Positions 1,677 to 35,605 of a stretch of DNA of 39,213 nucleotides are shown here, one piece after another. The DNA lies in the IMG/VR virus record IMGVR_UViG_3300042883_000269, positions 1 to 39,213 of that record; one strand, 5' to 3'. The notes beneath the pieces were generated by a model. It ran no database searches. It saw only the letters and a program-made list of their open reading frames with translations, and was not told the DNA's origin. Numbering within the stretch: position 1 is the stretch's first letter; each line of letters opens with the position of its first letter. Source of the stretch: a virus. Position numbers and translations under genes: made by a program.

Positions 1677-1704
1677 ATCCTATACACTTATTGAGATATG
1701 TCAA
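1677..1704 (-). promoter_or_regulatory. Sigma70-like promoter of the 56-residue leftward gene
   Basis: Minus strand: TTGACA (1704-1699), 16-base spacer, TAGGAT (1682-1677). The ATG follows after 5 bases, so the transcript would start at or very near the initiation codon. Confidence 0.55.
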
Positions 1705-1718
1705 GGAAATGTAAAATC

Positions 1719-1746
1719 TTGACTCTCCAACGGAAGGGGCTACAAG
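1719..1746 (+). promoter_or_regulatory. Sigma70-like promoter of the lipoprotein operon
   Basis: TTGACT (1719-1724), 16-base spacer, TACAAG (1741-1746), then 7 bases to the ATG at 1754. It is back to back with the leftward promoter: the two -35 boxes are separated by only 14 bases, which would allow shared control. Confidence 0.45.
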
Positions 1747-1753
1747 TCATGGA

Positions 1754-1912
1754 ATGAAATACGCTTTATTGTTCGTTGTCCTACTCTCATCTGGTTGCGT
1801 TTCTTCTGATAGCCCCTGCAACTCGTTTGGCAGATCGGACGGCTGCTTCTACATCGCAAGGATGGAGAGCTTGCTAAAGATGCAGAGTGGATCGACTGCC
1901 TTTGGGTGGTAA
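1754..1912 (+). CDS. Small lipoprotein (52 aa)
   Basis: The N-terminus MKYALLFVVLLSSGC is a signal peptidase II signal: charged start, hydrophobic core, lipobox L-S-S-G-C with Cys15 as the lipidated residue. The mature part is about 38 residues with two further Cys (residues 22 and 31) and no proline-rich region. A Gram-negative host membrane location is expected. It could be a small outer-membrane spanin subunit, a superinfection-exclusion lipoprotein or another cell-surface moron. It lies far from the lysis cassette, which has its own spanin candidate, so exclusion or surface change seems more likely. First gene after the divergent promoter pair; its stop overlaps a possible GTG start of the methyltransferase gene. 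Confidence 0.65.
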   Translation: MKYALLFVVLLSSGCVSSDSPCNSFGRSDGCFYIARMESLLKMQSGSTAFGW

Positions 1913-1953
1913 ATCTCTTTACAATAGATTGCAAATACTGCAAGGATTTGTGT

Positions 1954-2601
1954 ATGAAGATCCTCCCTAACGGCATCGCAGTGATTGATGGAGATTCCCA
2001 TATCTCTGCGTGGGTGGAGGAGTCGGGTAGGCTGGATCACGACCAGAATGCCTTACCTCTCATCCTAGAGCATATCAAGGCTGGGGATTGGGTGGTTGAT
2101 GGAGGAGCCTTTATTGGCGATCACACGATAGCCTACAAGGATAAGGTGGGAGATTTGGGAATGGTGTTCGCGTTTGAGCCAAACAAGGAGGCATTTGAGT
2201 GTCTTGTTCATAACTGCCCTAGTGTGGATTGCTTGGATATGGGACTATCTGACAGGGATTCCGTTGGGCTGCTAGAGAAGAACCGCAATGCTGGAGCATC
2301 CATTGTTGGTTTGCTTGGCGACCACATCCAATTGATCGACCTAGATCACCTTGATTTGCCAAGACTTGATTTTTTGAAGCTTGATGTGGAGGGATTTGAG
2401 ACTAAAGCTTTGCGCGGAGCAGAGCAAACTATCCTTAAATGCCGTCCGAAGATGTGGATTGAGGTCAATCGTGGGTGCTTGGAGCGTCAGGGAAGTTCCG
2501 TAAAGGAGCTTATGGAGGTTATTTTAAGCATGGGATACCAGATTGAGCCTTATCCAGAAGAGGGAGGAGAGCAATATGATGTTCTTTGTATTCCGCTATG
2601 A
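1954..2601 (+). CDS. FkbM-family SAM-dependent methyltransferase
   Basis: Enzymes of this family O-methylate sugars or small molecules using S-adenosylmethionine. The SAM-binding motif I is visible as VVDGGAFIGDHT, motif II as FAFEPNKEAFECL, and the typical family block as LKLDVEGFETKALRGAE. The length (215 aa) fits a compact phage FkbM protein. I chose ATG 1954 because MKILPNGIAVIDGD looks like a natural N-terminus. A GTG at 1906 would add 16 residues and overlap the lipoprotein stop. The stop overlaps the ATG of the next gene (ATGA, 2598-2601), which is glycosyltransferase-like, so the pair probably modifies a glycan together, either on the virion or on the host surface. The substrate cannot be read from sequence. 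Confidence 0.85.
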   Translation: MKILPNGIAVIDGDSHISAWVEESGRLDHDQNALPLILEHIKAGDWVVDGGAFIGDHTIAYKDKVGDLGMVFAFEPNKEAFECLVHNCPSVDCLDMGLSDRDSVGLLEKNRNAGASIVGLLGDHIQLIDLDHLDLPRLDFLKLDVEGFETKALRGAEQTILKCRPKMWIEVNRGCLERQGSSVKELMEVILSMGYQIEPYPEEGGEQYDVLCIPL

Positions 2602-3281
2602 CTTGTGATGTGTTTATTCGGTCGTATAGGAACGACTTCCAGTGGTTGAAGTATTGCCTGAGAAGCTGCGAGAAGCACCTATCTGGCTTTAACCGCATCC
2701 ATATCGCCATTCCCGCTGATGATATTCGCATTTATCAGCCCCATTCGCATGAAGTGGTGCATATTGTAGATAATTGGAGCGATGACTACATAGGGCAGCA
2801 ATACACGAAGCTATGCGCGGATATGTTTTGCTACTCCGATTTCATTCTCCATGTGGATTCTGACTGCATCTTCACTTCCCCAACCTCCCCGCAGGACTTC
2901 ATGTTCAACGAGAAGGCCGTTATATTGCACGAGGATGGCGTAGAAACGCCTTGGGTTCCCATTGTGGCACGAACGATGGGGTTCAACATGGAAAGCGAGT
3001 ATATGAGGCGTTTACCCATGATCTACCCCAGATGGATTTATGCAGGGTTTAGGGAGTTTATAGAGAAGCAGCATGGGATGAAGCTCAAGGAATGGATGAA
3101 GATTCAGCCATTCCATGAGTTTAGTGAGTTTAATTGCCTTGGTGCGTGGCTATGGAGGTTTGCTAGGGAAGGAGTGGAGTGGAAGCTGCCTAGTGAGATG
3201 CCGACAAAGGCCAAGCAGTTCTGGAGTTGGGGAGGAATTGATGGTTGTGTGGAAGAAATAGAGAAGTCTCTTGCGGAGTAA
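2598..3281 (+). CDS. Glycosyltransferase-like protein (DUF6492-type)
   Basis: The 227-residue product starts with a GT-A like strand-helix (CDVFIRSYRNDFQWLKYCLRS), then IHIAIPADD, and carries a DxD-type metal site in LHVDSDCIF. Such proteins transfer sugars from nucleotide-sugar donors; DUF6492 members are common in metagenomic phages. I chose ATG 2598, which overlaps the methyltransferase stop, over an upstream TTG (2586). Coupling to the FkbM gene suggests both act on the same carbohydrate. The GT fold assignment rests on motif pattern only; the acceptor is unknown. Confidence 0.65.
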   Translation: MTCDVFIRSYRNDFQWLKYCLRSCEKHLSGFNRIHIAIPADDIRIYQPHSHEVVHIVDNWSDDYIGQQYTKLCADMFCYSDFILHVDSDCIFTSPTSPQDFMFNEKAVILHEDGVETPWVPIVARTMGFNMESEYMRRLPMIYPRWIYAGFREFIEKQHGMKLKEWMKIQPFHEFSEFNCLGAWLWRFAREGVEWKLPSEMPTKAKQFWSWGGIDGCVEEIEKSLAE

Positions 3282-3306
3282 ATCTATAGGCTTTATTTGT
3301 GAGCCA

Positions 3307-3555
3307 ATGATTGCTAAAGACTTCCCAGACGATGACCCAGAACTTGCTAGAGTTGATGCGGTGCTAGATCAAGTCAGGGGAATACTAGGAGAGCATTTCG
3401 ATGTGGGTCTTGTTCTCCTCACTTCCATGTCTTCCGAAGGCATCACTAGCTATCATTCCACTGCTTTTGGAAACAAGTTTGCTATTCGTGGGGTGGTGGA
3501 AGCTTATAGCGAAGGCGCATTTGATGATTTTGGTGATTTTGATGACGAGGAATAG
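3307..3555 (+). CDS. Small acidic hypothetical protein (82 aa)
   Basis: ATG 3307 gives a product with helices around residues 10-30 and an acidic, Phe-rich tail (FDDFGDFDDEE). A TTG at 3271 overlapping the previous stop would add 12 residues. The pattern of an alpha/beta domain with an acidic tail is common in small phage proteins, but I recognise no family. The next gene has its own promoter, so this is probably the last gene of the sugar-modification operon. Confidence 0.6.
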   Translation: MIAKDFPDDDPELARVDAVLDQVRGILGEHFDVGLVLLTSMSSEGITSYHSTAFGNKFAIRGVVEAYSEGAFDDFGDFDDEE

Positions 3556-3557
3556 CA

Positions 3558-3586
3558 TTGACTTACTTGCTCTGATTTAGTAGGAA
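3558..3586 (+). promoter_or_regulatory. Candidate promoter of the virion operon
   Basis: TTGACT (3558-3563), 17-base spacer, TAGGAA (3581-3586), 11 bases to ATG 3598. The 12-mer CATTGACTTACT (3556-3567) is repeated exactly at 20455-20466 in front of another gene. TATATT at 3588-3593 is an alternative -10 box without a good -35 partner. Confidence 0.45.
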
Positions 3587-3597
3587 GTATATTACTC

Positions 3598-4326
3598 ATG
3601 GCTTCCCTAACATTTGCAGCAACTAAAAGCCTCTTGGCTGAATATGTCACCTCACAGGGTGCAGCAGATCCTATTGTTGCTTCTGCCATTAACTTTGTGA
3701 ACGAGCGATTCATCACCTCCGCTCAGTGGAGGGGCAATCGGTTCATTATGAACTTTGCAGTTACGACCGACGAGGGTGGTAACTATGTGTTTGATACTGT
3801 TGCTGGCGTGGAGAGCGTGTTAAAAGTGATTGCTCTAAATGCAGATGCTACTAGCGGCGAGATCGCCGACATTTTTAGTGATTGGTTCCCTTGGGTGGAG
3901 GGAGGTCTTGGCTGGCTCCCAGCTAACTACGCAGGAGCAACGCAGATTATTCGTCAAGGCCCAGTTAAGTCTTTCCCTTTGCCGTCTGGTAATGGGGCTG
4001 GCTTGTTTACTGTGGACACTCAGAGGTATCGTGTTATTGGCAATGTGCCAGAAAATCGCACCCTGTATTGCATTGTTCGTCGCGGGTATGTTCCTCTTGT
4101 AAACGACACGGACAGGCTAGTTCCCTCCAACCGCAATGCCTATCGCTATGGCATACAGGCTTTTAATTACGAGAACATTAACGAACTTGAGCGAGCAAAA
4201 GTCTATTGGGAGCTTGCCTATCAGTGTCTTAATGAAGAAACTGCCAGCTTTGAAGAGGGCGAGCAAGTTTCCGTGGACATCCAAACTAAGGGGTTCGCCC
4301 CATCACTCATCCAAAACCTCATCTAA
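3598..4326 (+). CDS. Putative virion protein, possibly head-tail adaptor or neck
   Basis: The 242-residue protein begins with helices (ATKSLLAEYVTSQG; VASAINFVNERFIT), has a beta-rich middle and ends with a helical region around NINELERAKVYWELAYQCLNEE. This helix-beta-helix plan and the size resemble podovirus tubular or adaptor proteins (T7 gp11 type), but no diagnostic motif is present, so the role is an inference from size and position. It heads a long rightward run of virion genes and probably has its own promoter. It could also be a minor tail protein. Confidence 0.45.
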   Translation: MASLTFAATKSLLAEYVTSQGAADPIVASAINFVNERFITSAQWRGNRFIMNFAVTTDEGGNYVFDTVAGVESVLKVIALNADATSGEIADIFSDWFPWVEGGLGWLPANYAGATQIIRQGPVKSFPLPSGNGAGLFTVDTQRYRVIGNVPENRTLYCIVRRGYVPLVNDTDRLVPSNRNAYRYGIQAFNYENINELERAKVYWELAYQCLNEETASFEEGEQVSVDIQTKGFAPSLIQNLI

Positions 4327-4329
4327 TAT

Positions 4330-5013
4330 ATGGCAACGCCACTTAAAACATCCAATCCTTATTTTGATAGTTTGGCTATAGCCAACACAGCCAAGGATTA
4401 TGGAATGAATTCTCTTTTAGCTCCCCAGCTTTCTTCTGATCCATTTTCCCAGCCATTTAATCAACCTCCTAGCTCCACTCTAGCAACTGGCATGAATATT
4501 CCAGCAAACCTTGGGATGTCTGGTGAGGCATCCACGCCAATTGGAAATGGATCTGCTCAAAACTCCGCTCAGTCGGCAATGAAGGAAAAGAGTAATCTGC
4601 AAAAGGCTTTTGAAGGAGTTCAGTCGCTATATTCTCCAATGGGGGGAAAGCCGATTGGTGGATCTGAACAAATTAGGGTGAAAGCTGATCCCTATGGTCG
4701 CCCATACACAGTTGTCAGCATGACACCAACTGACGAGCAAGGGAGGTCGCAGAAAGCTGAGACTATGAGTTTTGGTATCTCTCCAGAACAAAAGGCATCG
4801 GCTTCAACTCAGGTAGGTGCGCCTCAAGGACAGCCTCCAGCTGGTTCAACGCCAGCGGCGGCTGGAAAGCCAGCAGTAGAGCCAAATGTTGGAAACATTG
4901 GAGCCACTGAAAAGTTTAATCCATTCTCTCAACAGAATGCAGCGCAAATGCAGGAATATAACCGCAGGAAACAATCCGCGATGTCTGGACAATACGGAAC
5001 AAGCGTAATTTAA
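4330..5013 (+). CDS. Low-complexity hypothetical virion protein (227 aa)
   Basis: Rich in Ser, Gln, Pro, Ala and Gly and probably largely unstructured, with one more ordered segment around residues 105-150 (SEQIRVKADPYGRPYTVVSM). No family is recognised. It lies 3 bases after the previous gene and 1 base before the next coiled-coil gene, inside the virion operon, so it is probably packaged or acts in assembly. The ATG is preceded by TAATAT, not by a Shine-Dalgarno site. Confidence 0.6.
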   Translation: MATPLKTSNPYFDSLAIANTAKDYGMNSLLAPQLSSDPFSQPFNQPPSSTLATGMNIPANLGMSGEASTPIGNGSAQNSAQSAMKEKSNLQKAFEGVQSLYSPMGGKPIGGSEQIRVKADPYGRPYTVVSMTPTDEQGRSQKAETMSFGISPEQKASASTQVGAPQGQPPAGSTPAAAGKPAVEPNVGNIGATEKFNPFSQQNAAQMQEYNRRKQSAMSGQYGTSVI

Positions 5014-5014
5014 T

Positions 5015-6184
5015 ATGGCTACAGAAGACTCAGTAAAAAGCACTTCTACGAGGACGGCTGGTGGTTCTCCATATCTCCAGTCATTTATTGCTCCAGCAGA
5101 AGTTGCTCAGACTGCCCAGTTTGAAAGGGCATTGCAGATGGATCGTAATGAGCGTGAAAGAGCATCTTTTGAAGCGGGACAGGCTAGGGCTTTAAGGCAA
5201 GAGGAGTTCCAGAATAAGGAGCTAGAATACAGGGAGAGGTCTGAGGATCGCCGTCTTGAGGCAGCGAATCTTGCCATTAGAAAACAAGACGCACAGGATG
5301 CTTTAAAGTTGCAAGAGTCCAAAAGGGAAACTGAAGCGTCAGAGGTTGCTGGAAAAATTGGCCTTCTCAATGAGTCCAGCCCCACAGTTAGGGACGATTT
5401 GAAAAAGTTGGTAGAGGAGAACGCTAATGTCTTCACTAGCAAATACGCAAAATTTCCGCTTGAGCAACTTGAGGCTAAACAGAAGGGGCATAGTGATTAC
5501 ATTGGTTGGCTTTCTAAGTCTGCTCAAACCAGTGGATACTCTGGTGATGTGTATGCCCTACCAAAGAATGACAGGGGAGAGTTTGACACCACTGCCAATG
5601 GTCAGATATTTGGCGAGAAGGGAGTTTTTACAACGGCATTTTCACAGAAACAACAGAAGGAACAAACCGACACACAACGCAAATTGCAGGAAGCTCGCGA
5701 TAGATCATTTATGGGTGAGTCAACTAGCGTAAAGCTCCCAGATGGCGAGGTTATTAAAGTTGAAGCTCAGAAGCCAGAAAAGCCCATTGACTATAAGAAA
5801 GAAGCCAAGGAGTTTGAAATCAAATATGGTGTTCCAGCGTCTGTGCTACAAAACCCAATTGGAGAAACCACTGGATCAACCAAATTGGTTCGCGGGAAAA
5901 TTGAAGAGGATAGATTTGTAGCAGATCCAGAGGGTGATTTCGTGCAAGTTAAAGACGCGAGCATAAAAACCCTCAAGAAAGGGAAGCTTGTTCCTTACGA
6001 AGTTTTTGAAAACTATAAATCCAACGCTTCTGGACAAGGACAATCTGGAGCTGGGATGCAGGGTGGGACGGCATTTTTCCCATCTTCAGCACCAAGCCCC
6101 TTGCCACAAACTCAACCCCAAGCTACAACTGATTCTTCAATCTCACCAGCCAAGGAAATAGATTGGAATAAATATAATCAGTAA
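5015..6184 (+). CDS. Coiled-coil virion protein (389 aa), possible internal protein
   Basis: Residues 30-110 are dense in Glu, Arg, Gln, Lys and Ala with a heptad-like pattern (RNERERASFEAGQARALRQ). A second charged helix lies near residues 200-230, and the C-terminus is Pro/Gln/Ser-rich. It sits between a low-complexity protein and the giant internal-type proteins, the position where podoviruses carry small internal core proteins. The functional role is inferred from neighbours. Confidence 0.5.
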   Translation: MATEDSVKSTSTRTAGGSPYLQSFIAPAEVAQTAQFERALQMDRNERERASFEAGQARALRQEEFQNKELEYRERSEDRRLEAANLAIRKQDAQDALKLQESKRETEASEVAGKIGLLNESSPTVRDDLKKLVEENANVFTSKYAKFPLEQLEAKQKGHSDYIGWLSKSAQTSGYSGDVYALPKNDRGEFDTTANGQIFGEKGVFTTAFSQKQQKEQTDTQRKLQEARDRSFMGESTSVKLPDGEVIKVEAQKPEKPIDYKKEAKEFEIKYGVPASVLQNPIGETTGSTKLVRGKIEEDRFVADPEGDFVQVKDASIKTLKKGKLVPYEVFENYKSNASGQGQSGAGMQGGTAFFPSSAPSPLPQTQPQATTDSSISPAKEIDWNKYNQ

Positions 6185-6185
6185 A

Positions 6186-15998: not shown

Positions 15999-16443
15999 CT
16001 TATTAAAAATTAACACAATATGCAAAGTTGATCTTAATGAGGCTTATTTTGCAGATTGCATGATTATTCATATTTTGAATGGGACAAAATTTGACACGCC
16101 GCATTCTTTCATTATCAAGGGTGGGATGGGAACCTTAATATCAGAAAATAATGAACTGAGGTTTGAGAGGGAAATAAAAACCCTAACTCTTGCACAAAAG
16201 ACTTCTGCATTATCATCTGCTGCAAGGGGTTGGGTTAAGTCTGGTTTTAGTATGACCACAGATGAGCAGCTAGAGTCCCGCAAAGCAATCTGCAAAGAAT
16301 GCCCAGAATGGAATCCAGCGGGATTCGCTGGAACTGGATCTTGCAATAAATGCGGCTGCTCCACTCAGGCCAAGCTCCGAATGTCCACATCTAAATGCCC
16401 CATTGACAAGTGGGGGCCAGTTGATGTAAGACAAACGGACTGA
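15970..16443 (+). CDS. Protein with C-terminal Cys-cluster (zinc-ribbon-like) module (157 aa)
   Basis: Residues 105-148 contain C108-x2-C111, C125-x2-C128-x-C130 and C143-P-x-x-K-W, a metal-binding pattern I know as common in phage proteins next to sugar-transferase genes. The N-terminal half is unassigned. It starts inside the previous gene (28-base overlap; an ATG at 15976 is equally possible) and ends one base before the glycosyltransferase-like gene, so it is probably co-translated with it. A second protein with a related Cys pattern is encoded at 28499-29161. Function unknown. Confidence 0.6.
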   Translation: MKMEALSYTDLLKINTICKVDLNEAYFADCMIIHILNGTKFDTPHSFIIKGGMGTLISENNELRFEREIKTLTLAQKTSALSSAARGWVKSGFSMTTDEQLESRKAICKECPEWNPAGFAGTGSCNKCGCSTQAKLRMSTSKCPIDKWGPVDVRQTD

Positions 16444-16444: not shown

Positions 16445-17488
16445 ATGATTGTTGCCATCTCTTACCACGATGGGGATCTTCCCCTTATGCGCCGTTGGGC
16501 TGACCATGTGTTCACCCTTGGCCTCTATAAAACCCACAAGCTAATCCTTGTTCCCATTCGCAATGCCACGACAGACGGCGTTCTAGGGCCGCTAATGAAT
16601 TGCTTTGGTGAGGTAGTTGTTGAACCTTGCACTCACGCTTATGGAGGTTGGCCTCAGTCTTGCAATATGGCGTTTGAGTCAGTTGCTTGGATTGTATCTA
16701 CAACTCTAAAGCGTCCTTTCCTCTGGATGGAGCCAGATGCTATTCCACTGAAAGCAAGCTGGATAGATGACATTGAGAATGCCTACAATGCAGCGAGGAA
16801 GCCGTTTATGGGGTCTTTGGTGGAGATTGCAGGGATTATGCCCAATGGAGTGAATCACATGAGTGGCGTGGGTGTATATCATTGGGATCTGCATCGTCTC
16901 TGCCCTTCTATTTTTAACAACGAGCATACTGCTTGGGATATTGCCAGCGCATCGAATGTGGTTCCACAGATGCACAATACGAGCCTAATCCAGCATGATT
17001 GGGTTCCTACTGCACAATGGCGCAGAGAGAAGGTCACTAAGGATCTAGTGAATCCACTTGCTGTAATATACCATCCAGATAAGTTGGGCGTTTTAATGTT
17101 GAATGGCGCAATTCCGAATGATGTGCAGGGAGATCCTGCAATGGGTGCTGTGCTGGTTACACAGAGACCCCATGAAACAAAGGAACGGCCAGATGATTAC
17201 AAAGGGGAGGTGGTCGTAAAGAGCTTCCCAGTAAATCTCTACGCAGAGGAGGCAAAAATGATTGTTGCGCTAGACGCTCCCGATCTGCACTATATTGTAA
17301 GTTATGCAAAAACCAACCCCAAAGCCAAGAAAGAAGTCCTTAACCTCCTTGTCAAAGAAGGCATCCTTACCAAAGGTTCATGTGCCAAGCTCTTTGGAAA
17401 AAAAGTTCGATCTTCTGTGGGCAAGCGTCAACGGCCCAAGTCTGGAGATAGAGTTCAAGTTTCATCCAGTACGCCGCTGGAGGGCTGA
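16445..17488 (+). CDS. Glycosyltransferase-like protein (347 aa)
   Basis: The product begins MIVAISYHDGDLPLMRRWADH, a GT-A like first strand and helix. It carries FLWMEPDAIPLKASWID, where the acidic cluster E-P-D takes the place of the usual DxD, and a later segment SGVGVYHWDLHRL. This resembles phage-encoded glycosyltransferases that modify virion or host sugars. The last 60 residues overlap the next gene in another frame and are Lys/Ser-rich, so the C-terminus may be an extension gained by loss of an earlier stop. Neighbours: Cys-cluster protein upstream, nuclease downstream. Confidence 0.55.
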   Translation: MIVAISYHDGDLPLMRRWADHVFTLGLYKTHKLILVPIRNATTDGVLGPLMNCFGEVVVEPCTHAYGGWPQSCNMAFESVAWIVSTTLKRPFLWMEPDAIPLKASWIDDIENAYNAARKPFMGSLVEIAGIMPNGVNHMSGVGVYHWDLHRLCPSIFNNEHTAWDIASASNVVPQMHNTSLIQHDWVPTAQWRREKVTKDLVNPLAVIYHPDKLGVLMLNGAIPNDVQGDPAMGAVLVTQRPHETKERPDDYKGEVVVKSFPVNLYAEEAKMIVALDAPDLHYIVSYAKTNPKAKKEVLNLLVKEGILTKGSCAKLFGKKVRSSVGKRQRPKSGDRVQVSSSTPLEG

Positions 17489-17765: not shown

Positions 17766-17794
17766 TTTACATTACTGTATCGTTGGTGTATTGT
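17766..17794 (+). promoter_or_regulatory. Promoter of the first HNH gene, leaderless geometry
   Basis: TTTACA (17766-17771), 17-base spacer, TATTGT (17789-17794), then 6 bases to ATG 17801. A TTGACC 12 bases further up (17749-17754, inside the second direct repeat) is an alternative -35 for a TTACTG box. Confidence 0.5.
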
Positions 17795-17800: not shown

Positions 17801-18445
17801 ATGAAACTAAAACGTGGAACGATCAGAGAAGATGGAATGGTGTTCTCTCATTATCATAGAGGAGGAAGGGAGCGTTGGATAACCACAGAAATGCTCAACG
17901 CTCAAAAGAATAGAGATAAAACACTCCAAAAGGTGTGGAGGGGAGAAAACAAGGAAATTGTTTCCTCGCGAAATAAAGAGTGGCGCAAGGCAAATCCAGA
18001 CAAGGCGCGGGACAACCTTCGTAAGTGGAGGAAGAACAATACAGAAAAATGCCTTGCTGTATCTAGGTCGTGGAGAGCAGCTAACCCTCAAAAAGTAAAG
18101 CTGATGTATGAAAATACAAAGAAAGACATTGAAAAATTTAGGCTTGATGGGCGGGTTAAAAGAGCAAAACGCAGGGCAATGCTGCTGGAACAATTACATC
18201 CAGATCACAACCCGCAAATAGAAAGGGTCTTGGCGGCACAATGCAAATCTTTGTTTTTTCGGTTGGGCATTAAATTTGAAGTTGATCACATTGTTCCATT
18301 GACGAAGGGAGGCTGGCATCACCATTCCAACCTTCATGTTATTCCTTTGTCTTGGAATAGGAGGAAGCATAATAAAAGCAACGCATCCATTCCGCATTGT
18401 TGGGATTTAGATTATAGATGTAAGATTCCCGTTGACGCAATATAA
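17801..18445 (+). CDS. HNH homing-type endonuclease (214 aa)
   Basis: The C-terminal domain has the HNH signature FEVDHIVPLTKGG (Asp162, His163), SNLHVIPLSWNRRKHNK (Asn177, Asn186, His190, Asn191). The N-terminal part carries three W-R-x-x-N-x-x-K modules (residues 61, 76 and 91), typical of free-standing phage HNH proteins, and many basic residues for DNA binding. Such enzymes nick or cut DNA at intron-less sites and spread by homing. I chose ATG 17801; a TTG at 17783 lies within the promoter. Its own promoter, the 17-bp repeat on its left, and the location between virion genes mark it as a mobile insertion next to the capsid gene. Confidence 0.85.
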   Translation: MKLKRGTIREDGMVFSHYHRGGRERWITTEMLNAQKNRDKTLQKVWRGENKEIVSSRNKEWRKANPDKARDNLRKWRKNNTEKCLAVSRSWRAANPQKVKLMYENTKKDIEKFRLDGRVKRAKRRAMLLEQLHPDHNPQIERVLAAQCKSLFFRLGIKFEVDHIVPLTKGGWHHHSNLHVIPLSWNRRKHNKSNASIPHCWDLDYRCKIPVDAI

Positions 18446-18461
18446 CTTTGTGGGGTAGTCC
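18432..18461 (+). promoter_or_regulatory. Candidate promoter in the 3' end of the HNH gene
   Basis: TTGACG (18432-18437), 18-base spacer, TAGTCC (18456-18461), 6 bases to ATG 18468. It could drive the 23-codon frame and also the major capsid gene. The -10 box is weak. Confidence 0.3.
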
Positions 18462-18467: not shown

Positions 18468-18539
18468 ATGCGTAAACGGAGTCGCATCCGTGATATAGGC
18501 GTATTGGAAGTGTCGCTTCTTCCGAAACAAATAAAGTAA
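18468..18539 (+). CDS. Possible 23-residue leader peptide before the capsid gene
   Basis: An ATG placed 6 bases after a -10 like box opens a 23-codon frame rich in Arg and Lys (MRKRSRIRD), ending at TAA 68 bases before the capsid ATG. It may be translated from a leaderless transcript, or it may be chance. The same stretch can form hairpins: ATGCG (18468-18472) with CGCAT, and GGAAG with CTTCC near 18505-18522. So it could also be a structured 5' leader of the capsid mRNA. Confidence 0.25.
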   Translation: MRKRSRIRDIGVLEVSLLPKQIK

Positions 18540-18607: not shown

Positions 18608-19777
18608 ATGGCAATTACTTGCTCTACAGTCAATGATTTGTTCCAACGTGAGACGAATCGTTTCTCCGTTGATGTTCACGAACGTTATTCCGTCGATGGC
18701 CCTTGGGGTCGTCTAGTCCGAGTCGGCAAATTCCCTCAGGGAATGGGCACGACTCTCAATGAAATCACTGTCGAGCGTGTGCTCTCTGGTGATTTTGAAA
18801 ATGCTTGGACGAATGTTGGCCTTTCCAGCGGAACGGCTTCCAATGGTTGTATTCCTGCTCCTGCTGATCTTGACTTCGGTCAGACTGTTCGTAGTTGGAA
18901 TCTTCAGAGCCGTAGTTATCAGACTCCTTGCATCTGCTTGGACGATCTGAAGACTTCGTTTGAGATTGAGTCCCAGATCGCTAAGACTGTTACCCAGCTC
19001 ACGCAGCTCACCAAGACTGTCCTCGACAATCGCCGCCGTAGCGAGTATCTGCGCCTTGTTTCCAAGGTACAGGCTGGTTACAACACCGAGTACGCAACTC
19101 TTAACGCAGTTCCAGTTCCAACCTTCCAGTTGGCTCAGGATCAGCTTGACGAGCTTCGTGTTCGCTTGATCCGCGATGGTGCTGGTCACAACGCACTTGG
19201 TAAAGAGAATGGTGTTCCTGTCCTTGGACTGATCACCAGCCCTGAGACCAGCCGCGCTCTGATCCGTAACAACGCTGAACTCCGTCAGGACATCCGTTAT
19301 GCCACCCCTAGCGAGCTTATTGCTCCTCTTGGTGTCGAGCGTTCGTTCGGTGGGTTCTACCACATGATTGATCTTGAGGTTCCTCGCTTCAGCTATGCTG
19401 GTGGCGCATACACCCAGATCTACCCATTCGTGCAGTCCAGCACGACCACGGGATTCAAGTGGGAGGCTAACCCCGCCTACAACACAGCCCCTTATGAGGC
19501 TGCGTACATCTTCCACCCAGATGTGTACGAGGAGTCGGTGCAGCAGGTCGGGCCAAACATCGCTGGCGCAAGCTTCGATGATTATCCATACTACTACAGC
19601 GGTCAGTTCTTCTGGCTGAACATCCGTAATGCAGTGGACAATCCACTTGGCAAGATCGGTCGTTGGTTGGGAGTGTTCACAAGCGGAAGCCGTCCTATCG
19701 CTCCTTACCTTGGAAGGGTCATTTTGCACAAAAGATGCGCAAATGATTTTGGTTCAGTGGCTTGCACCAATTCCTAA
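18608..19777 (+). CDS. Major capsid protein
   Basis: The 389-residue protein has the size and plan of HK97-fold capsid proteins: a helical N-arm (STVNDLFQRETNRF), a long spine helix region (QIAKTVTQLTQLTKTVLDNRR), a mixed central domain and a C-terminal stretch (YEAAYIFHPDVYEESV, then LGRVILHKRC) like those of other podovirus capsid proteins. Codons are visibly more C-ending and less A/T-rich than in flanking genes, as expected for a highly expressed protein. I chose ATG 18608, preceded by an A-rich leader ending TATAATATT; an upstream ATG at 18542 would add 22 unrelated residues. A strong terminator follows at 19798. HNH genes flank it on both sides, and the portal, scaffold and terminase genes are more than 9 kb away. 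Confidence 0.8.
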   Translation: MAITCSTVNDLFQRETNRFSVDVHERYSVDGPWGRLVRVGKFPQGMGTTLNEITVERVLSGDFENAWTNVGLSSGTASNGCIPAPADLDFGQTVRSWNLQSRSYQTPCICLDDLKTSFEIESQIAKTVTQLTQLTKTVLDNRRRSEYLRLVSKVQAGYNTEYATLNAVPVPTFQLAQDQLDELRVRLIRDGAGHNALGKENGVPVLGLITSPETSRALIRNNAELRQDIRYATPSELIAPLGVERSFGGFYHMIDLEVPRFSYAGGAYTQIYPFVQSSTTTGFKWEANPAYNTAPYEAAYIFHPDVYEESVQQVGPNIAGASFDDYPYYYSGQFFWLNIRNAVDNPLGKIGRWLGVFTSGSRPIAPYLGRVILHKRCANDFGSVACTNS

Positions 19778-19797
19778 TAGGAACTAAATAGCTCAAG

Positions 19798-19836
19798 AAG
19801 CCCCAGTTGGATAAATCTAACTGGGGCTTTCTTTTG
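19798..19836 (+). terminator. Rho-independent terminator after the capsid gene
   Basis: AAGCCCCAGTT (19798-19808) pairs perfectly with AACTGGGGCTT (19819-19829) around a 10-base loop and is followed by TTTCTTTTG. It would end the capsid transcript just before the promoter of the next HNH gene. Confidence 0.95.
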
Positions 19837-19865
19837 TTGACAATGTAGTTTGATCAACATAATAT
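19837..19865 (+). promoter_or_regulatory. Strong sigma70-like promoter with an operator-like inverted repeat
   Basis: TTGACA (19837-19842), 17-base spacer, TAATAT (19860-19865), 9 bases to ATG 19875. This is the best consensus promoter in the window. CAACAT (19855-19860) and ATGTTG (19864-19869) form an inverted repeat over the -10 box and could be an operator. Confidence 0.75.
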
Positions 19866-19874
19866 GTTGCATAT

Positions 19875-20468
19875 ATGAATACACCATTAAGCAAAGATGT
19901 AATTAAAAAAATCAAGGAACTTAGGCTAGATGGATTTACCACAAGACATATTGCATCACTTCTTCAATGCAGTGCTGGCTCTGTTTTATATCACACTAAT
20001 CAGTCATATAAAAAATCACTACTTGGTAAAGGAGTAAGATATTCTGGAAAACGGCTTGATCAAGAAGAGCAAAACAAGATGCTGGAGATGTTAGAATCTG
20101 GTGCGTCAAATATGGATATTAAAAAATCTACCAATATTTCTTTGTCAACAATAAGGAAATATAGAAAGCCAGATCAATTTAGGACATACCAGTTAAATCG
20201 ACGCAATAAAGCAACTCGCAAAAGGCAGATATGGGTTGATCTAAAAAATGAACGACACAACAAGTGTGAGTTATGCGGATATGATAGGCATCCAAAGTGC
20301 CTTGACTTTCATCACAAAAATCCAAAAGACAAACTATTTACCATATCTCAATCAGAGGGAAGGAACATAGATGCCGTTTATGCAGAAGCCGCTAAATGCA
20401 TCCTTGTCTGCAAGAACTGCCACGCCTTAATCCATGCTGGAGTTATAGAAATAACATTGACTTACTAA
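19875..20468 (+). CDS. HNH endonuclease with two helix-turn-helix segments (197 aa)
   Basis: Residues 6-40 (KDVIKKIKELRLDGFTTRH) and 62-98 (NMDIKKSTNISLSTIRKY) are helix-turn-helix units for DNA recognition. Residues 128-190 form a zinc-type HNH nuclease: C131-x2-C134, LDFHHKNP (His146, His147, Asn149), C179-x2-C182, His183 and His187. Such proteins are free-standing homing endonucleases. It sits between the capsid terminator and the next virion genes and carries its own promoter. The promoter of the following gene lies within its last codons. Confidence 0.85.
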   Translation: MNTPLSKDVIKKIKELRLDGFTTRHIASLLQCSAGSVLYHTNQSYKKSLLGKGVRYSGKRLDQEEQNKMLEMLESGASNMDIKKSTNISLSTIRKYRKPDQFRTYQLNRRNKATRKRQIWVDLKNERHNKCELCGYDRHPKCLDFHHKNPKDKLFTISQSEGRNIDAVYAEAAKCILVCKNCHALIHAGVIEITLTY

Positions 20469-20485
20469 GTCATACCATCTAATAA
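20457..20485 (+). promoter_or_regulatory. Promoter of the 94-residue acidic protein gene
   Basis: TTGACT (20457-20462) lies in the last codons of the HNH gene, followed by a 17-base spacer and TAATAA (20480-20485), with 8 bases to ATG 20494. Shares the 12-mer CATTGACTTACT with the promoter at 3558. Confidence 0.6.
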
Positions 20486-20493
20486 TTCAAATT

Positions 20494-20778
20494 ATGACCA
20501 CATCATTTACTATCCCTAAAGGTTTCACTGCACCAGACGGAGTTAAAGAAGGAGCAGAGTTCTCCGAGATCGCCAAGTTCAAGATTGCCGATGGAATGAT
20601 TCAAATCATCTCCATTGGTCAAAACGAGACCCCTATTGAGTCTAAGTCTGAGAAGCCAAAGCCAAAGAAGGCCAAAGACGCAATGAAGGAAGAGATTGCC
20701 GCTATGGAAGGCGAGGACGAAATGGCTGAAGACGAAATGGCTGATGAAGAGATGACGGCAGAGGAAGAGATGGTTTAA
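20494..20778 (+). CDS. Small acidic protein (94 aa)
   Basis: The N-terminal 45 residues look folded (FTIPKGFTAPDGVKEGAEF). A Lys/Pro-rich linker follows, then a Glu/Asp/Met-rich tail with repeated EDEMAEDEMADEEM. Strongly acidic tails are seen in capsid-associated and scaffold-like phage proteins. It lies right after the capsid region with its own promoter, so a role in head assembly or as decoration is possible. No family is recognised. Confidence 0.55.
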   Translation: MTTSFTIPKGFTAPDGVKEGAEFSEIAKFKIADGMIQIISIGQNETPIESKSEKPKPKKAKDAMKEEIAAMEGEDEMAEDEMADEEMTAEEEMV

Positions 20779-24718: not shown

Positions 24719-24846
24719 TCTTCAACAACAGGCTCTGAAATGTCGGGCCTGTCGGCAGGGTAGCGTGAGTGGGTAGGGTAAAGTCAAGCATTAAAATAAA
24801 AAAAGATTTTATTGGCTTTTTGGTTTGGAGCAATAATTCTACTTCA
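24719..24846 (+). other. Short intergenic stretch after the lysis cassette
   Basis: A 6-bp stem (ACAGGC 24728-24733, GCCTGT 24747-24752) has no T-tract, so I do not call a terminator. The rest is A/T-rich and ends in the promoter listed next. Confidence 0.4.
24812..24839 (+). promoter_or_regulatory. Candidate promoter of the recombination module
   Basis: TTGGCT (24812-24817), 16-base spacer, TAATTC (24834-24839), 7 bases to ATG 24847. Boxes are less than ideal but the short -10-to-ATG geometry matches the others. Confidence 0.4.
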
Positions 24847-31392: not shown

Positions 31393-31400
31393 TCACTAAA

Positions 31401-31547: not shown

Positions 31548-31804
31548 GCGAGGCTTGGACACGCAAGGAGGGGAAGAACCCTAAAGGCGGTCTTAACGCC
31601 AAGGGAAGAGCTTCCTACAACAAGGCCACTGGAGGCAACCTAAAGCCACCAGCACCTAGCCCAAAAACAGATAAGGATGCCGCAAGGAAGAAATCCTTTT
31701 GCGCCAGAATGAAAGGAATGAAAGCAAAACTCACAAGCCCAGCAAAGAAGCGTGATCCCGACAGCAGGATCAACAAATCGTTGCGAGCTTGGAAGTGTAA
31801 GTAA
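31544..31804 (+). CDS. DUF6321-like basic protein (86 aa)
   Basis: The sequence KNPKGGLNAKGRASYNKATG, then FCARMKGMKAKLTS and DSRINKSLRAW, fits the DUF6321 family of phage proteins usually encoded beside head genes. Highly basic; a DNA-binding or internal head role is plausible but not established. Confidence 0.8.
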   Translation: MSEAWTRKEGKNPKGGLNAKGRASYNKATGGNLKPPAPSPKTDKDAARKKSFCARMKGMKAKLTSPAKKRDPDSRINKSLRAWKCK

Positions 31805-31822
31805 ACCAAAACCAAAAAACAA

Positions 31823-32002
31823 ATGACATCAAACCCGTTTGAGTCGGGCAGAGAAGAAATGAGGGAACAGATTGTTTCTCTCATCTACGAGCGATACATA
31901 TATTTTCGCACATTCCACGGACAAGAATCCGAGTTAGCACTAACCCTAAAAAATCTCATACATTCGATACGAGACGATCAAGCAAAAGAAATACAATTTT
32001 AA
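31823..32002 (+). CDS. Small hypothetical protein (59 aa)
   Basis: Product MTSNPFESGREEMREQIVSL then a second helix (SELALTLKNLIHSIRDDQA). The ATG follows the A/C-rich leader AACCAAAACCAAAAAACAA. It fills the space between two head genes exactly, with one base before the next ATG. No family is recognised. Confidence 0.6.
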   Translation: MTSNPFESGREEMREQIVSLIYERYIYFRTFHGQESELALTLKNLIHSIRDDQAKEIQF

Positions 32003-32003
32003 T

Positions 32004-32282
32004 ATGAATTTTGAAGAGTGGAGGGCTGATGTTACCCTTGCTGTGGAGCTAAAGAAGATCCTTCAACTGCCAGTTCTAAAGGCTGCACTTGAATTAACAG
32101 ACGGCTTAACTGCCGCCAAGACGCTTGGTAACACAAGTGCTTTAACCAAAGTTGCAGCGAACGCATCAGTCCTTTTTGGATTTGATGCAGGACGAGCGTC
32201 TATCATTACAGACCTTCATAACCTATCCATAGTTCCAGAGGAATTTGAAGAGGTTCAACCTAGCTATACCAACAATCTTTAA
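32004..32282 (+). CDS. Small helical protein (92 aa) of the head module
   Basis: Helical throughout (EEWRADVTLAVELKKILQL; AKTLGNTSALTKVAANASV) with a conserved-looking FGFDAGRASIITDLHNL segment. The place between portal and scaffold is typical for small head-associated proteins. No specific function can be assigned. Confidence 0.55.
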   Translation: MNFEEWRADVTLAVELKKILQLPVLKAALELTDGLTAAKTLGNTSALTKVAANASVLFGFDAGRASIITDLHNLSIVPEEFEEVQPSYTNNL

Positions 32283-32285
32283 TTT

Positions 32286-33500
32286 ATGTCAGACACACCA
32301 AACAACACACCAAGTCAAACGCAAGCGGCAGATTCCGTTATTGCTACCACCCCGCCACCTAACAACGAGTCATGGGAAACACAAATCTCTCGTCAGCTTA
32401 ACAGTAAGCCTGACATCAAGAAGATTGACCTCAAGTCCCTAGAGGATCTTCCAGACAGCATGGCTCCTACGGACATGGACTATGTGGCTGAACAAGACGC
32501 TAATGATTACCTTAAACAGATGGACGGAGGCACAACCGATGAGCCAACCAAGAATTCCAAGAAAACCAAGGTGGTCGTTAAGGAGGAGGCTATTGAGGTC
32601 AATGACAATAGCTTTGATGTGTCTGATCTTGATCTTACCAAGGAGCCTAGCCCCATTGTTGAAACCAAGACCAAAAAGAGCAAGGAGGACAACATCGCGG
32701 AGCTTCGCAAGAAGGCAGAGGCTTACGAGGAATCCCTCAAGGCCAAGGACACGGAGGTTTCCAGCTACCGCGAGAAGCTTGAGAAGCTAGAGGGAGAGCT
32801 TGAGCGCACAGCCTTTGAGCGTTCCCCTAAGTTTAAGGACAAGTACGAGGCTCCATTTGCTTCTTCCGTTGATGCTGCAAAAGCATTTGCTGAGGAGTTT
32901 GCTGATGATGCAACGATTGCAGAGAAGGCTCTGTCTCTTAAGGGTCGCGAGCGCATTGAGTTTATTGACGAATCCTTCGGAGGGGGCGCGGCGGCTGGTC
33001 AGTTCTTGTCTCTCGTTAATGACGCAGAAGGCAAGCGTGGAGCATTGGAGGGTGCGCTAGAGAACTATCGCGCCACGGCTACGGAGATTGACCAAGCGGA
33101 GCAGCAGCACAGCCTAAAGATCGTAGAGGAAGTTAATACGAACTTTGATCGGATGACTAATCATCTTGCCAAGAAAAGCGACTTCTTCCGTATGACAGGA
33201 GATGACGATAATGACAAGCTGGTGACTCAGAGGATTGAAGCGGCTCGAGCAATTATTCATGGCAATGCCACAAGCAACGAGATGACTGTTGCTCCATTCC
33301 TTGCCGTTATCGCTCGTGAGGCAGTAGCTGAAAACGATAAGCTCAAAGCAGAGCTTGCCAAGTATAAGAGCAGGGCTAAAGAAGATGCGGCGGTTCAGCC
33401 TCGCATCAGCAAAGGCTCCTCTAGTGATTTGGATGACGATGTGATTGGTAAACCTAAATCGGCTCTTGACAGCATCCGCTCTCAACTGCGAGGATACTAA
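32286..33500 (+). CDS. Scaffold-like protein (404 aa)
   Basis: The N-terminus is Pro/Thr/Gln-rich and acidic. Residues 140-180 form a coiled coil (NIAELRKKAEAYEESLKAKD). The rest is helical, and the C-terminus is short and basic (SALDSIRSQLRGY), as in capsid-binding ends of scaffolds. Position between portal and terminase fits. The unusual point is that the capsid gene is not adjacent. A terminator follows. Confidence 0.6.
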   Translation: MSDTPNNTPSQTQAADSVIATTPPPNNESWETQISRQLNSKPDIKKIDLKSLEDLPDSMAPTDMDYVAEQDANDYLKQMDGGTTDEPTKNSKKTKVVVKEEAIEVNDNSFDVSDLDLTKEPSPIVETKTKKSKEDNIAELRKKAEAYEESLKAKDTEVSSYREKLEKLEGELERTAFERSPKFKDKYEAPFASSVDAAKAFAEEFADDATIAEKALSLKGRERIEFIDESFGGGAAAGQFLSLVNDAEGKRGALEGALENYRATATEIDQAEQQHSLKIVEEVNTNFDRMTNHLAKKSDFFRMTGDDDNDKLVTQRIEAARAIIHGNATSNEMTVAPFLAVIAREAVAENDKLKAELAKYKSRAKEDAAVQPRISKGSSSDLDDDVIGKPKSALDSIRSQLRGY

Positions 33501-33520
33501 TTCAGTTAATTTAAAATTGA

Positions 33521-33565
33521 AGCCCCTCTCTGCCGTGTTTGCGGATCTGGGAGGGGTTTCTTTTT
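33521..33565 (+). terminator. Terminator between scaffold and terminase genes
   Basis: GCCCCTC (33522-33528) and GAGGGG (33551-33556), with an inner CCG/CGG pair, are followed by TTTCTTTTT (33557-33565). The terminase ATG lies 3 bases after the T-tract, so terminase must come from readthrough or an unseen promoter. Confidence 0.8.
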
Positions 33566-33568
33566 AAC

Positions 33569-35257
33569 ATGGCATTACAGACTTACGGACTAGACTTTAC
33601 CAAGTTTCCCAACATCACTCAGCTTGAGATAGAGCTATTGATGGTTGCGGATAAAGATCCTTCTCGCATTACAGGGATAAGCAGGGGGCAGCATATCAAG
33701 CATTGCATTCATATGCTTTGGCCCGATGTGATGAAAAGCTGGAACGATTGGAACGAGTTGGCGTTATGGGCGTGGACGCACTACGACGAGATCGGAGTTA
33801 CTGGATGTGCGGCGGCTGGCAAGACCTTCACCTTTACGCTCCTGTCTCTGGTAGAGTATCTGGCAAAACCCATGGGAACTCGTGTGGCTTTAACGAGTAC
33901 GACTGTCCCTTCTCTTCGCGGTCGTATCTGGGCAGAGATGATGAAGTTCATCCGTCCTTGCGTTCCTCTCTTTGGTCTTAATGTAGTGGATTCACAAACC
34001 AAGATCCAATTTACCAGAGGTGATGATAGGTCGGCTATTATAGCCCTTGCCGTCGATTCTGGGGCTGTAGAGCAAGCCGTAGGTAAGTTGCAAGGTGTTC
34101 ACCTACCAAGGATGTGCGTGATGGCTGACGAGGCCGCACAGACGAATCCAGCTATCTTCTCCGCTCGTGCCAACTTGCAAGTTGGTACTGACTTTTATCA
34201 CTTCATCGCCATTGCCAACGCTTCCAGCTTATTTGATCCTCATGGACTATTCTGCGAGCCAAACATGGGGTGGGGTAGCATCGGAGATAACGATGAGCAT
34301 TGGGAAACCAAGTCGGGAATATGCGTGAGATTCGATGGCCTTAAGTCCCCGAACATCAAAGCTGGTCGGCTTATCTACCCCTACCTATTCGGGCAGGACA
34401 ATGTTGACACTATCCGCAAGAACTTTGGAGAGGGCAGCTTGGAGTGGAATAGCTATTGTAGGGGGATGTGGAGCAAAAGTGGTTCTCGTAATACAATGGT
34501 GGACTCAGCCATGATTACGGAAGGCAAGGCTAGGGAGAAGGTGGTATGGGCGGGTGGCAATATCAAGACACTTGCCGCTCTCGACCCTGCATTCACTACG
34601 GAGGGTGATGATTGCATCCTGCGATTCGCCAAGGTAGGCAAGGCAACTGATGGCAACTTGACCATTAACTTGACTGAGGTCGTTAAGTTGCAACTCATGG
34701 ATGATCCGAACTACCCGCTATTCTACCAAGTGGCAGATCAGACGATTGAGCAGCTTAAAAAGAATGGCGTAGAGCCAGAAGACTTTGCTCTTGATTCAAC
34801 TGGTGCTGGTGCTGGCATTGCCGACATCATTTCTCAGCGGTGGCATTCTGGATTCGTGCGAGTCTCGTTTGGTGGTGCAGCCACAGACTCCCCGATAAGC
34901 GTGGAAGATAATCGTCCCGCAAAGCAAGTCTATGCCAACCGAGTGACGCAGCTTTGGGGACAGATCAAAGTGATCATTATGAGTGGCAGAATGAGAGGTT
35001 TGGACGATCAGACCTCCAGAGAGTTATGCGCTCGCATTTATTCTTTGAGGAACGAGAGAACGCTTTTGGAGAGCAAGAAGGATCTCAAGAAGAGGACGAA
35101 GGGAAGCTCTCCAGATAGGGCAGATGCCCTTGCGTTGCTCGCTGAACTATTTGTGACGCAAAACGGATTGGGAGATGCAACTGGAAGTCAATCACAAAAT
35201 TCTGGCGATTGGGATGATTTTATTATGGACAATGAATTGGAGCCTGACTATCGGTAG
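33569..35257 (+). CDS. Terminase large subunit
   Basis: The ATPase has Walker A GCAAAGKT (residues 79-86) and Walker B VMADE (184-188). The nuclease domain shows LAALDPAF (Asp339), ALDSTGAGAG (Asp409) and SSPDRADAL near residue 533, the three acidic positions of RNase H-like terminases. It pumps DNA into the prohead through the portal and cuts it. ATG 33569 is chosen because the only upstream candidate (TTG 33539) lies inside the terminator. No small terminase is recognised; one of the small genes may fill that role. Followed after 3 bases by a small gene. Confidence 0.95.
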   Translation: MALQTYGLDFTKFPNITQLEIELLMVADKDPSRITGISRGQHIKHCIHMLWPDVMKSWNDWNELALWAWTHYDEIGVTGCAAAGKTFTFTLLSLVEYLAKPMGTRVALTSTTVPSLRGRIWAEMMKFIRPCVPLFGLNVVDSQTKIQFTRGDDRSAIIALAVDSGAVEQAVGKLQGVHLPRMCVMADEAAQTNPAIFSARANLQVGTDFYHFIAIANASSLFDPHGLFCEPNMGWGSIGDNDEHWETKSGICVRFDGLKSPNIKAGRLIYPYLFGQDNVDTIRKNFGEGSLEWNSYCRGMWSKSGSRNTMVDSAMITEGKAREKVVWAGGNIKTLAALDPAFTTEGDDCILRFAKVGKATDGNLTINLTEVVKLQLMDDPNYPLFYQVADQTIEQLKKNGVEPEDFALDSTGAGAGIADIISQRWHSGFVRVSFGGAATDSPISVEDNRPAKQVYANRVTQLWGQIKVIIMSGRMRGLDDQTSRELCARIYSLRNERTLLESKKDLKKRTKGSSPDRADALALLAELFVTQNGLGDATGSQSQNSGDWDDFIMDNELEPDYR

Positions 35258-35260
35258 GGC

Positions 35261-35524
35261 ATGGAAACCCAAGAGTCTGTTTACACCCACCTCATCAACA
35301 AGATCCCACCAGTAACGGATGGAAATAAACACAATCAAACCAAAAACAGAATAGGGGAGGTTTTTGGAGAATGGGAGGTTCTAGGTTTTTCGCATAAGCT
35401 ACCCAGAAAAAAGAAAGGGCATGAAGCGATTACTTGGTGGCTCGTTGGATCACAATCATCCATGCAAATTAAAAGCTTGGAACAATTGCGTGTTTGCAAA
35501 CAAAGATTTAAAAAGTCAGAATAA
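35261..35524 (+). CDS. Orphan FG-x-W-x-VL module protein (87 aa)
   Basis: Residues 28-55 (RIGEVFGEWEVLGFSHKLPR, then ITWWLV) resemble the N-terminal module of the HNH protein encoded downstream (GKQFGRLHVLRKA, then EWVCICSC), without its Cys residues and without a nuclease domain. It may be a separate DNA-binding protein or a relic of an HNH gene. It lies directly behind terminase. Confidence 0.5.
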   Translation: METQESVYTHLINKIPPVTDGNKHNQTKNRIGEVFGEWEVLGFSHKLPRKKKGHEAITWWLVGSQSSMQIKSLEQLRVCKQRFKKSE

Positions 35525-35536
35525 CAAGACGAAACT

Positions 35537-35605
35537 ATGGAAAAAACAAATTGTTGGTACATTTAGATATTGACATCAATTCAGTAGATGACTTAATGTA
35601 CGCAT
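35537..35605 (+). promoter_or_regulatory. Promoter of the third HNH gene
   Basis: TTGACA (35570-35575), 18-base spacer, TAATGT (35594-35599), 6 bases to ATG 35606. A relic-like frame starts ATGGAAAAA at 35537, the same nine bases that start the nuclease gene at 36166. Confidence 0.55.

Follow-up and report, generated by a model that had tools for sequence, protein, structure and literature searches.

A phage genome of 39,213 nucleotides from freshwater (IMG/VR record IMGVR_UViG_3300042883_000269; the whole stretch is referred to here as the window) carries a series of box pairs placed almost directly before start codons. We consider these likely to be sigma-70/sigma-A promoters that give leaderless or near-leaderless messages, and to represent the way in which this phage lineage usually arranges genes that are transcribed separately. 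The original prediction, that transcripts are placed to start at or just before the ATG, agrees with what was found: sigma-70-type promoters with a predicted start 0–6 nt ahead, in a layout kept by relatives. All boxes that it listed occur in the sequence at their positions, and five of the sites (3558, 17766, 19837, 20457 and 35570) are well spaced ahead of a genuine gene start; the features are collected in Table 1.

Table 1. Predicted promoters and neighbouring features in the window.
Feature	Position	Strand	Description
Candidate leaderless promoter of 56-aa ORF	1677–1704	−	TTGACA-16-TAGGAT-5-ATG (ATG at 1671)
Promoter of gene 3598	3558–3586	+	TTGACT-17-TAGGAA-11-ATG 3598; near-leaderless type
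Gene 3598	3598–4326	+	Conserved phage gene, unnamed; no PHROG match
Promoter of gene 16445	16403–16432	+	TTGACA-18-TAAGAC, 12 nt to ATG
Gene 16445	16445–17488	+	Conserved phage gene; no PHROG match
Promoter of HNH gene 17801	17766–17794	+	TTTACA-17-TATTGT-6-ATG; leaderless type
HNH endonuclease gene 17801	17801–18445	+	phrog_1035, phrog_6050
Promoter of putative major capsid gene	18432–18461	+	TTGACG-18-TAGTCC, 176 nt before ATG 18608
Two tandem pseudoknot-like RNA modules	18468–18523	+	CGUA...GG...UCG...CC; capsid leader; covariation
Putative major capsid protein gene	18608–19777	+	Conserved in 49 loci; no PHROG match
Intrinsic terminator of capsid gene	19797–19830	+	15-pair stem and T run; next promoter directly after
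Promoter of HNH gene 19875	19837–19865	+	TTGACA-17-TAATAT-9-ATG; near-leaderless type
HNH endonuclease with HTH, gene 19875	19875–20468	+	phrog_3106, phrog_2255; Pfam HTH_7
Promoter of gene 20494	20457–20485	+	TTGACT-17-TAATAA-8-ATG; near-leaderless type
Gene 20494	20494–20778	+	Small gene adjoining capsid gene; match in 43 loci
Promoter of HNH gene 35606	35570–35599	+	TTGACA-18-TAATGT-6-ATG; leaderless type
HNH endonuclease gene 35606	35606–36178	+	phrog_374, E 9e-50

Conservation of the predicted promoter layout in related phages

Counts within the window gave a divided answer to the proposed comparison with shuffled sequence. Over the whole window, sigma-70-like pairs are no commoner than in shuffles (29 versus 34.6; 24 versus 28.9), and this total would not by itself have backed the idea. 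The comparison turns favourable at gene starts when the -10 box is required to lie 5–11 nt away: 4 of 50 starts score at least 9/12, where shuffles give 0.56 (p 0.002), an excess that is small in the window alone. Related phages, the other comparison proposed, strengthen the observation considerably, since the spacing recurs there well above expectation. Among 164 loci on related IMG/VR contigs, TTGAC stands 33–44 nt before an ATG 101 times against 28 expected (3.6x), and it ranks first among all 1024 5-mers at this distance. (A first TTGAC-to-ATG histogram, made without gene calling, was discarded because of noise from conserved coding DNA.)

The signal is concentrated in three gene families. 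Counting distinct orthologous upstreams with TTGAC 31–46 nt before the ATG, we found it retained in 24 of 24 for gene 16445, 18 of 20 for gene 3598 and 25 of 30 for gene 20494, versus 19 of 512 upstreams of all other genes. Orthologues thus strongly back the listed sites 3558 and 20457, and the earlier list proves incomplete: it overlooked 16403, the best-conserved upstream of all. That chance is at work, with AT-rich phage DNA supplying plenty of TTGAC/TATAAT-like pairs and those near ATGs being picked out, would fit the window total and the unsupported sites 24812, 1039 and 1719. We regard it as highly improbable as a general account given this retention, the first rank of the 5-mer and the replication in marine phages described below; for 3598, 16445 and 20494 it is refuted, a refutation that does not extend to 1704, 1719, 24812 and 1039.

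When upstreams are aligned on TTGAC, a TA at +23/+24 (71%/73%) stands out as the chief further block, and an A/T-rich stretch lies immediately upstream of the -35 box. In the -10 box the last T is weak (31%). Bacteroidota promoters carry TTTG or TAnnTTTG; no TTTG was found after the TA of the -10 box, where positions are A-rich, and a promoter of this type was therefore rejected. The distance from T(-12) to the ATG is mostly 12–18 nt in the freshwater group and 11–15 nt in the marine group, so that many freshwater transcripts would carry a leader of 2–6 nt rather than none.

A blind repeat on 56 loci of a distant marine phage group recovered TTGAC-n17–19-TA 47 times at 33–38 nt, versus 1–5 times per other bin. 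One marine relative has TTGACT-17-TATATT-6-ATG, and the start of its downstream gene resembles that of 3598 by eye. The layout is absent from control phages (ordinary phages), in which TTGAC is depleted at 33–44 nt (rank 1019 of 1024) and peaks at 51–74 nt, and the Shine-Dalgarno signal is strong.

Could these be real promoters with ordinary leaders, pressed onto genes by compaction, with translation starting farther downstream or from other transcripts? Phage genes are densely packed, and the start codons come from a simple calling script. However, when the upstream gap exceeds 100 nt, 12 of 15 TTGAC matches still lie at 33–44 nt, which argues against compaction alone; orthologues align from the same ATG; and the control phages, packed too, hold TTGAC 51–74 nt off. 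We judge this explanation very unlikely.

An account that takes TTGAC for a conserved part of read-through mRNA, either an RNA element or a regulator-binding one, rather than a -35 box, draws on family 16445. Many of its upstreams have inverted repeats between the -35 box and the ATG, and 11 of 24 fold with z < -1.5; the leaderless model leaves these repeats unexplained. The -35 box of site 16403 falls within the coding end of gene 15970, and in about nine of the listed family upstreams, the window included, TTGACA also encodes a "PIDKWG"-like conserved end of the upstream gene, a point against the near-leaderless promoter account itself; in the remaining listed upstreams it is intergenic. On the other side, folding is absent at 20494 and slight at 3598 (mean z 0.0 and -1.0), and the TA stays 17 nt after TTGAC, as is typical of sigma-70 promoters, whereas the interval before the ATG varies: 52 of 65 promoter genes have the 17-nt spacer, and counts at other spacings are 3–15. 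We therefore consider such an element very unlikely and retain the promoter reading.

Genes served by the predicted promoters

HNH genes 19875, 35606 and 17801 each have their own promoter directly upstream. Orthologues back all three, in fewer sequences than for 3558 and 20457: three of the four distinct upstreams of 19875 have TTGAC at this spacing, the 35570 site is retained in an 81%-identical orthologue, and the -35 box of 17766 is retained in several orthologues, with a weaker -10 box. The start of gene 17801 is taken as the ATG after the promoter; a longer TTG frame opens at 17783. The -35 box of site 20457 forms the final codons of HNH gene 19875 (TTG ACT TAC TAA). Relatives without the HNH gene appear to exist at the 19837–20494 junction, and in these the promoter of gene 20494 comes straight after a terminator-like tail.

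The suggestion that such promoters serve mainly accessory or mobile genes did not hold in relatives, where 45 of 65 promoter-bearing nonredundant genes belong to families 16445, 20494 and 3598 and HNH genes are a minority; the best-kept sites stand before both conserved phage genes and mobile HNH genes. Expression independent of the operon is plausible from sequence, because terminator-like hairpins are enriched before promoter genes (14 of 65, versus 26 of 645 others with an upstream gap). Independence from ribosome-binding sites agrees with a Shine-Dalgarno peak that is almost absent from the freshwater group, but is not peculiar to these sites, since the whole group shares it.

Several other listed sites fared less well. 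The promoter at 24812 is not retained in an 83%-identical orthologue, and a TTGAC-type -35 box occurs in 0 of 13 related upstreams listed for 1039. The short ORFs of sites 1704 and 1719 have no relatives in related loci, and neither site is backed by orthologues. Site 18432 was considered as the leaderless promoter of a 23-codon ORF, a reading we dropped, as the ATG of this ORF is absent in most relatives. The promoter itself, which overlaps the 3' end of HNH gene 17801, is conserved but leadered and serves the putative capsid gene, with TTGAC 137–225 nt ahead of that gene in most relatives. We also observed that a covarying tandem pseudoknot-like RNA stands before capsid genes; the leader RNA has no Rfam match.

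Search for the host

The terminase was sought in 84,980 species genomes, and no relative was found; among isolated phages the only terminase match was weak (26%, Pseudomonas phage HU1) and the capsid had none. In sampled phyla the capsid profile gave one strong match, to a contig made up of phage sequence only that had been binned with a Verrucomicrobiales MAG (one genome among 289 and then 388 Verrucomicrobiota genomes; the only other match, E 2e-4, contains stops). There were no matches in 246 and in 343 Planctomycetota genomes (the centre of the latter sample is labelled Alphaproteobacteria but is evidently Planctomycetota, since the sample draws on the genomes of the Planctomycetota search), nor in 250 genomes from the phylum, presumably Bacillota, to which a Pelotomaculum-labelled genome belongs. 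As the matching contig is binned and not integrated, Verrucomicrobiota is a lead, not proof. In 23 Verrucomicrobiota genomes the promoter pattern shows a modest excess (501 versus 347 at a 20-nt shift, summed).

Discussion

In the proposed mechanism, a housekeeping promoter has a -35 TTGAC(A/T), a 17-nt spacer and a TA-led -10 box that ends about 6–12 nt ahead of the start codon, so that RNA polymerase would start 0–6 nt upstream of the AUG. Ribosomes would then initiate on messages with no leader or a very short one, a mode of translation common in some bacteria. Leaderless translation is expected to resist kasugamycin (PMC5230787). The layout would serve conserved genes 3598, 16445 and 20494, along with mobile HNH genes bringing their own copy; with several promoters directly behind terminators, the downstream gene could be expressed anew. 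The actual transcription start and leaderless translation, like the host and the timing in infection, we infer.

Actinobacteria and Deinococcus-Thermus have TA-led leaderless genes, in which a Pribnow-like TA box precedes the start codon by about 10 nt, and in Deinococcus a -35 box placed 17 nt away raises their expression (PMC3160421, PMC12340547). The phage sites share the position of the TA box but are viral, have a strong TTGAC -35 box as their best-conserved part, and have starts predicted from sequence. Cluster O mycobacteriophages have three predicted leaderless SigA promoters, PL1, PR2 and PL2 (PMC4351075), whereas here the layout is lineage-wide, in phages nearly without Shine-Dalgarno signals. 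Mapped leaderless starts make up about 10% of TSS in Akkermansia muciniphila (PMC4782308), a verrucomicrobium and thus of the candidate host phylum; these belong to cellular genes. Free-standing homing endonucleases of T4 have their own promoters, or carry the promoters of downstream genes embedded in their coding sequence (PMC2988022). Genes 19875, 35606 and 17801 have own promoters as free-standing phage homing endonucleases do, although their homing role is putative, and an embedded downstream promoter is likewise present. The T4 promoters are middle and late ones with leaders and RBS, while here the -35 box is read as HNH C-terminal codons.

It seems to us an evenly balanced question whether a freshwater and marine lineage, probably living on Verrucomicrobiota, uses leaderless or near-leaderless promoters as standard for genes transcribed on their own, keeps a long structured leader for the major capsid mRNA, and uses Shine-Dalgarno sequences almost never. 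Leaderless phage messages are mostly known as single cases, for example repressor genes. Others are predictions for a few promoters, whereas here a conserved lineage-wide layout contrasts cleanly with other phages. It offers a testable model of viral gene expression without ribosome-binding sites and a way to spot, in phages of this kind, which start codons are true and where transcription units lie; it also hints at how their uncultured hosts initiate translation.

Promoters close to start codons in the freshwater relatives

The 39.2-kb virus record from IMG/VR carries nearly all of its genes on the + strand, and a comparison of its first 25 kb with 50,697 phage records turned up nothing closely related. 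Related IMG/VR loci were recovered through the terminase (80), the putative capsid protein (49) and gene 3598 (35); genes are named by window start coordinate and promoters by -35 position. The original prediction held that promoters lie 5-11 bases before ATG, and the boxes it listed were found as described. Compared with shuffled sequences, sigma-70-like pairs were not enriched over the whole window (29 vs 34.6 and 24 vs 28.9), but among gene starts with a -10 box 5-11 nt from ATG, 4/50 scored at least 9/12 vs 0.56 in dinucleotide shuffles (p 0.002), a count that dropped once the same test was shifted further upstream. Support from this single genome is only modest.

The related phages bore out the distance. 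Among 3331 genes identified with a simple caller in the window and 164 related loci (the freshwater set; 1782 nonredundant), TTGAC occurred 33-44 nt before the start 101 times vs 28 expected, the top of all 1024 5-mers. The strongest other block in a TTGAC-anchored alignment was TA at +23/+24 (71% and 73%), corresponding to a spacer of 17 nt; positions -7 to -5 were rich in A/T. When the spacer was left free, TA again peaked at 17 nt (52 cases vs 3-15 at other spacings). Judged from sequence, this is a sigma-70 promoter signature. Since the first T of the -10 box mostly lies 12-18 nt before ATG, the predicted leader is 0-6 nt, taking the start as 12 nt after that T.

A marine sister group and control phages

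A capsid profile match in locus L285 (G006:C70, Verrucomicrobiales MAG NP75), whose capsid and gene-29158-like proteins are 31% and 26% identical to those of the window, led to a marine sister group of 56 IMG/VR loci (L387-L442). In the same test, TTGAC-n17-19-TA was found there 47 times at 33-38 nt vs 1-5 times in other 6-nt bins, and TTGAC again ranked first of 1024 5-mers. The T-to-ATG distance was mostly 11-15 nt, with sharper spacing than in the window's group, and these promoters would be essentially leaderless. In L285 itself, TTGACT-17-TATATT-6-ATG precedes a gene whose N-terminus resembles, by eye, that of 3598. Control phages (385 kb; Pantoea, Staphylococcus, Escherichia, Enterococcus and faecal phages, and Pantoea-phage relatives) showed TTGAC depleted at 33-44 nt (rank 1019) and peaking at 51-74 nt. 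Shine-Dalgarno (SD) signals were strong in the controls and almost absent in both study groups. Across the 1782 nonredundant genes of the whole phage group, the SD peak is almost nil, with A enriched (46% at -3) and G depleted just before the start codon, a bias like that of SD-less bacteria.

Genes that carry the promoter

Orthologue upstreams less than 80% alike were counted as distinct and scored for TTGAC 31-46 nt before ATG. The box was present in 24/24 upstreams of gene 16445, 18/20 of 3598, 25/30 of 20494 and 3/4 of HNH endonuclease gene 19875. For genes other than these and HNH genes 17801 and 35606, the count of 19/512 equalled that in a control stretch lying further upstream (19/512). 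Of the promoters of the first three genes, the original prediction included 3558 (gene 3598) and 20457 (gene 20494) but missed 16403 (gene 16445). In about nine 16445 upstreams, the window's included, TTGACA is also coding sequence, for part of a "PIDKWG"-like motif conserved in the preceding gene, so independent evidence at this gene comes from the intergenic cases only; the box is present in these too. In relatives (L129, L103, L120, L097, L126 and others), the interval from -35 to ATG of 16445 contains inverted repeats whose sequences differ, often around the -10 box; folding z was below -1.5 in 11/24 upstreams, and the repeats may act as an operator or form an RNA hairpin.

The expectation that such promoters serve mainly mobile genes did not hold: the 65 nonredundant promoter genes of the freshwater set include 17 of the 16445 family, 16 of 20494 and 12 of 3598, and only five of HNH families 19875 and 35606. 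HNH genes do bear their own promoter copy. The last codons of an HNH gene (TTG ACT TAC TAA) supply the -35 box of gene 20494, and in HNH-less relatives the 20494 promoter comes right after a terminator-like tail. Both internal HNH genes end inside the next gene's promoter, with the TTGAC box doubling as C-terminal codons. Embedded promoters are also known in T4 homing endonucleases (PMC2988022); as argued for these, loss of the HNH gene would put the next gene's promoter at risk. Terminator-like hairpins precede 14/65 promoter genes vs 26/645 others with an upstream gap, and this excess, with the window terminator, fits separate transcription.

Features of the window
Feature	Position	Remark
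Promoter	3558	gene 3598
Promoter	16403	gene 16445
Promoter	20457	gene 20494
Promoter	18432	putative capsid gene 18608
HNH gene ends within promoters	20457-20468; 18432-18445	
Terminator	19797-19830	
Two tandem pseudoknot-like RNA modules (CGUA...GG...UCG...CC)	18468-18523	follow promoter 18432 and precede gene 18608; covariation
Conserved noncoding stretch	1291-1470	86% to L133
Promoter-like pair, +	1302	TTGACT
Promoter-like pair, -	1321-1293	TTGACA-17-TATATT, 11/12
Repeated words	1-900	noncoding left end

The leader of the putative capsid gene

Site 18432 is a promoter. It had been listed as leaderless, which relatives contradict: in them it stands 137-225 nt upstream of the putative capsid gene, and a conserved structured leader follows it. 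The two modules share the pattern NNNCG-UA-NNGG-NNU-CGNNN-CCNN, in which both helices would overlap in the manner of an H-type pseudoknot or form in alternation. In hand-trimmed sequences of relatives (alignment A4), 88% of cells were paired vs 79% in shuffles (0/500) and 43-59% in slid controls, with 36 compensatory double changes, in both overlapping helices, vs 11.8 (0/500), a test that is not independent because the structure was proposed after viewing the same sequences. The window copy matched no Rfam family. An exact-pattern search elsewhere in IMG/VR matched, among others, two unrelated phages (L465 and L457) whose next large gene encodes a major head protein by PHROG match; single or tandem copies were seen before head genes of unrelated phages, L478 also being noted as a carrier. 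A second leader class, with a conserved sequence of its own, occupies the same place in L084, L088, L092, L102, L112, L116 and L129: ttagctgaaaccagtc...ggcgag...tagccacc...gggcgtaattatggag...agcccgatcc.

The window's left end holds repeated words, TTGTCTTAC / GTAAGACAA, possibly operator or replication-linked sites. The conserved stretch at 1291-1470 contains opposed promoter-like pairs and is a possible small RNA (folding of 1325-1620, z -2.0).

Mechanism and host

In the most likely mechanism, the host's housekeeping polymerase would start at, or a few bases from, the AUG, and ribosomes would initiate by a leaderless or SD-independent route. Sequence evidence supports the promoter part of this predicted mechanism well; the 5' ends of transcripts, the mode of translation, the host and the timing in infection we infer. 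Published parallels are TA-led genes of Actinobacteria and Deinococcus (PMC3160421; PMC12340547), leaderless starts of Akkermansia (PMC4782308) and, through three predicted promoters, Cluster O mycobacteriophages (PMC4351075).

Verrucomicrobiota are a candidate host phylum for the lineage. Sampling with the capsid profile covered three phyla: it gave a strong match in 1/388 Verrucomicrobiota genomes, on a contig with phage sequence only that was possibly misbinned, and none in 246 and 343 Planctomycetota genomes or in 250 genomes from a third phylum, presumably Bacillota. The ATG-adjacent pattern was 1.4 times as frequent as the 20-nt-shifted one in 23 Verrucomicrobiota genomes (501 vs 347) and 1.2 times in 13 Planctomycetota genomes (186 vs 150).

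The original prediction is real in substance. Sigma-70 boxes and leaderless starts are each ordinary when taken singly; what is unusual is their conserved layout across an entire phage lineage.
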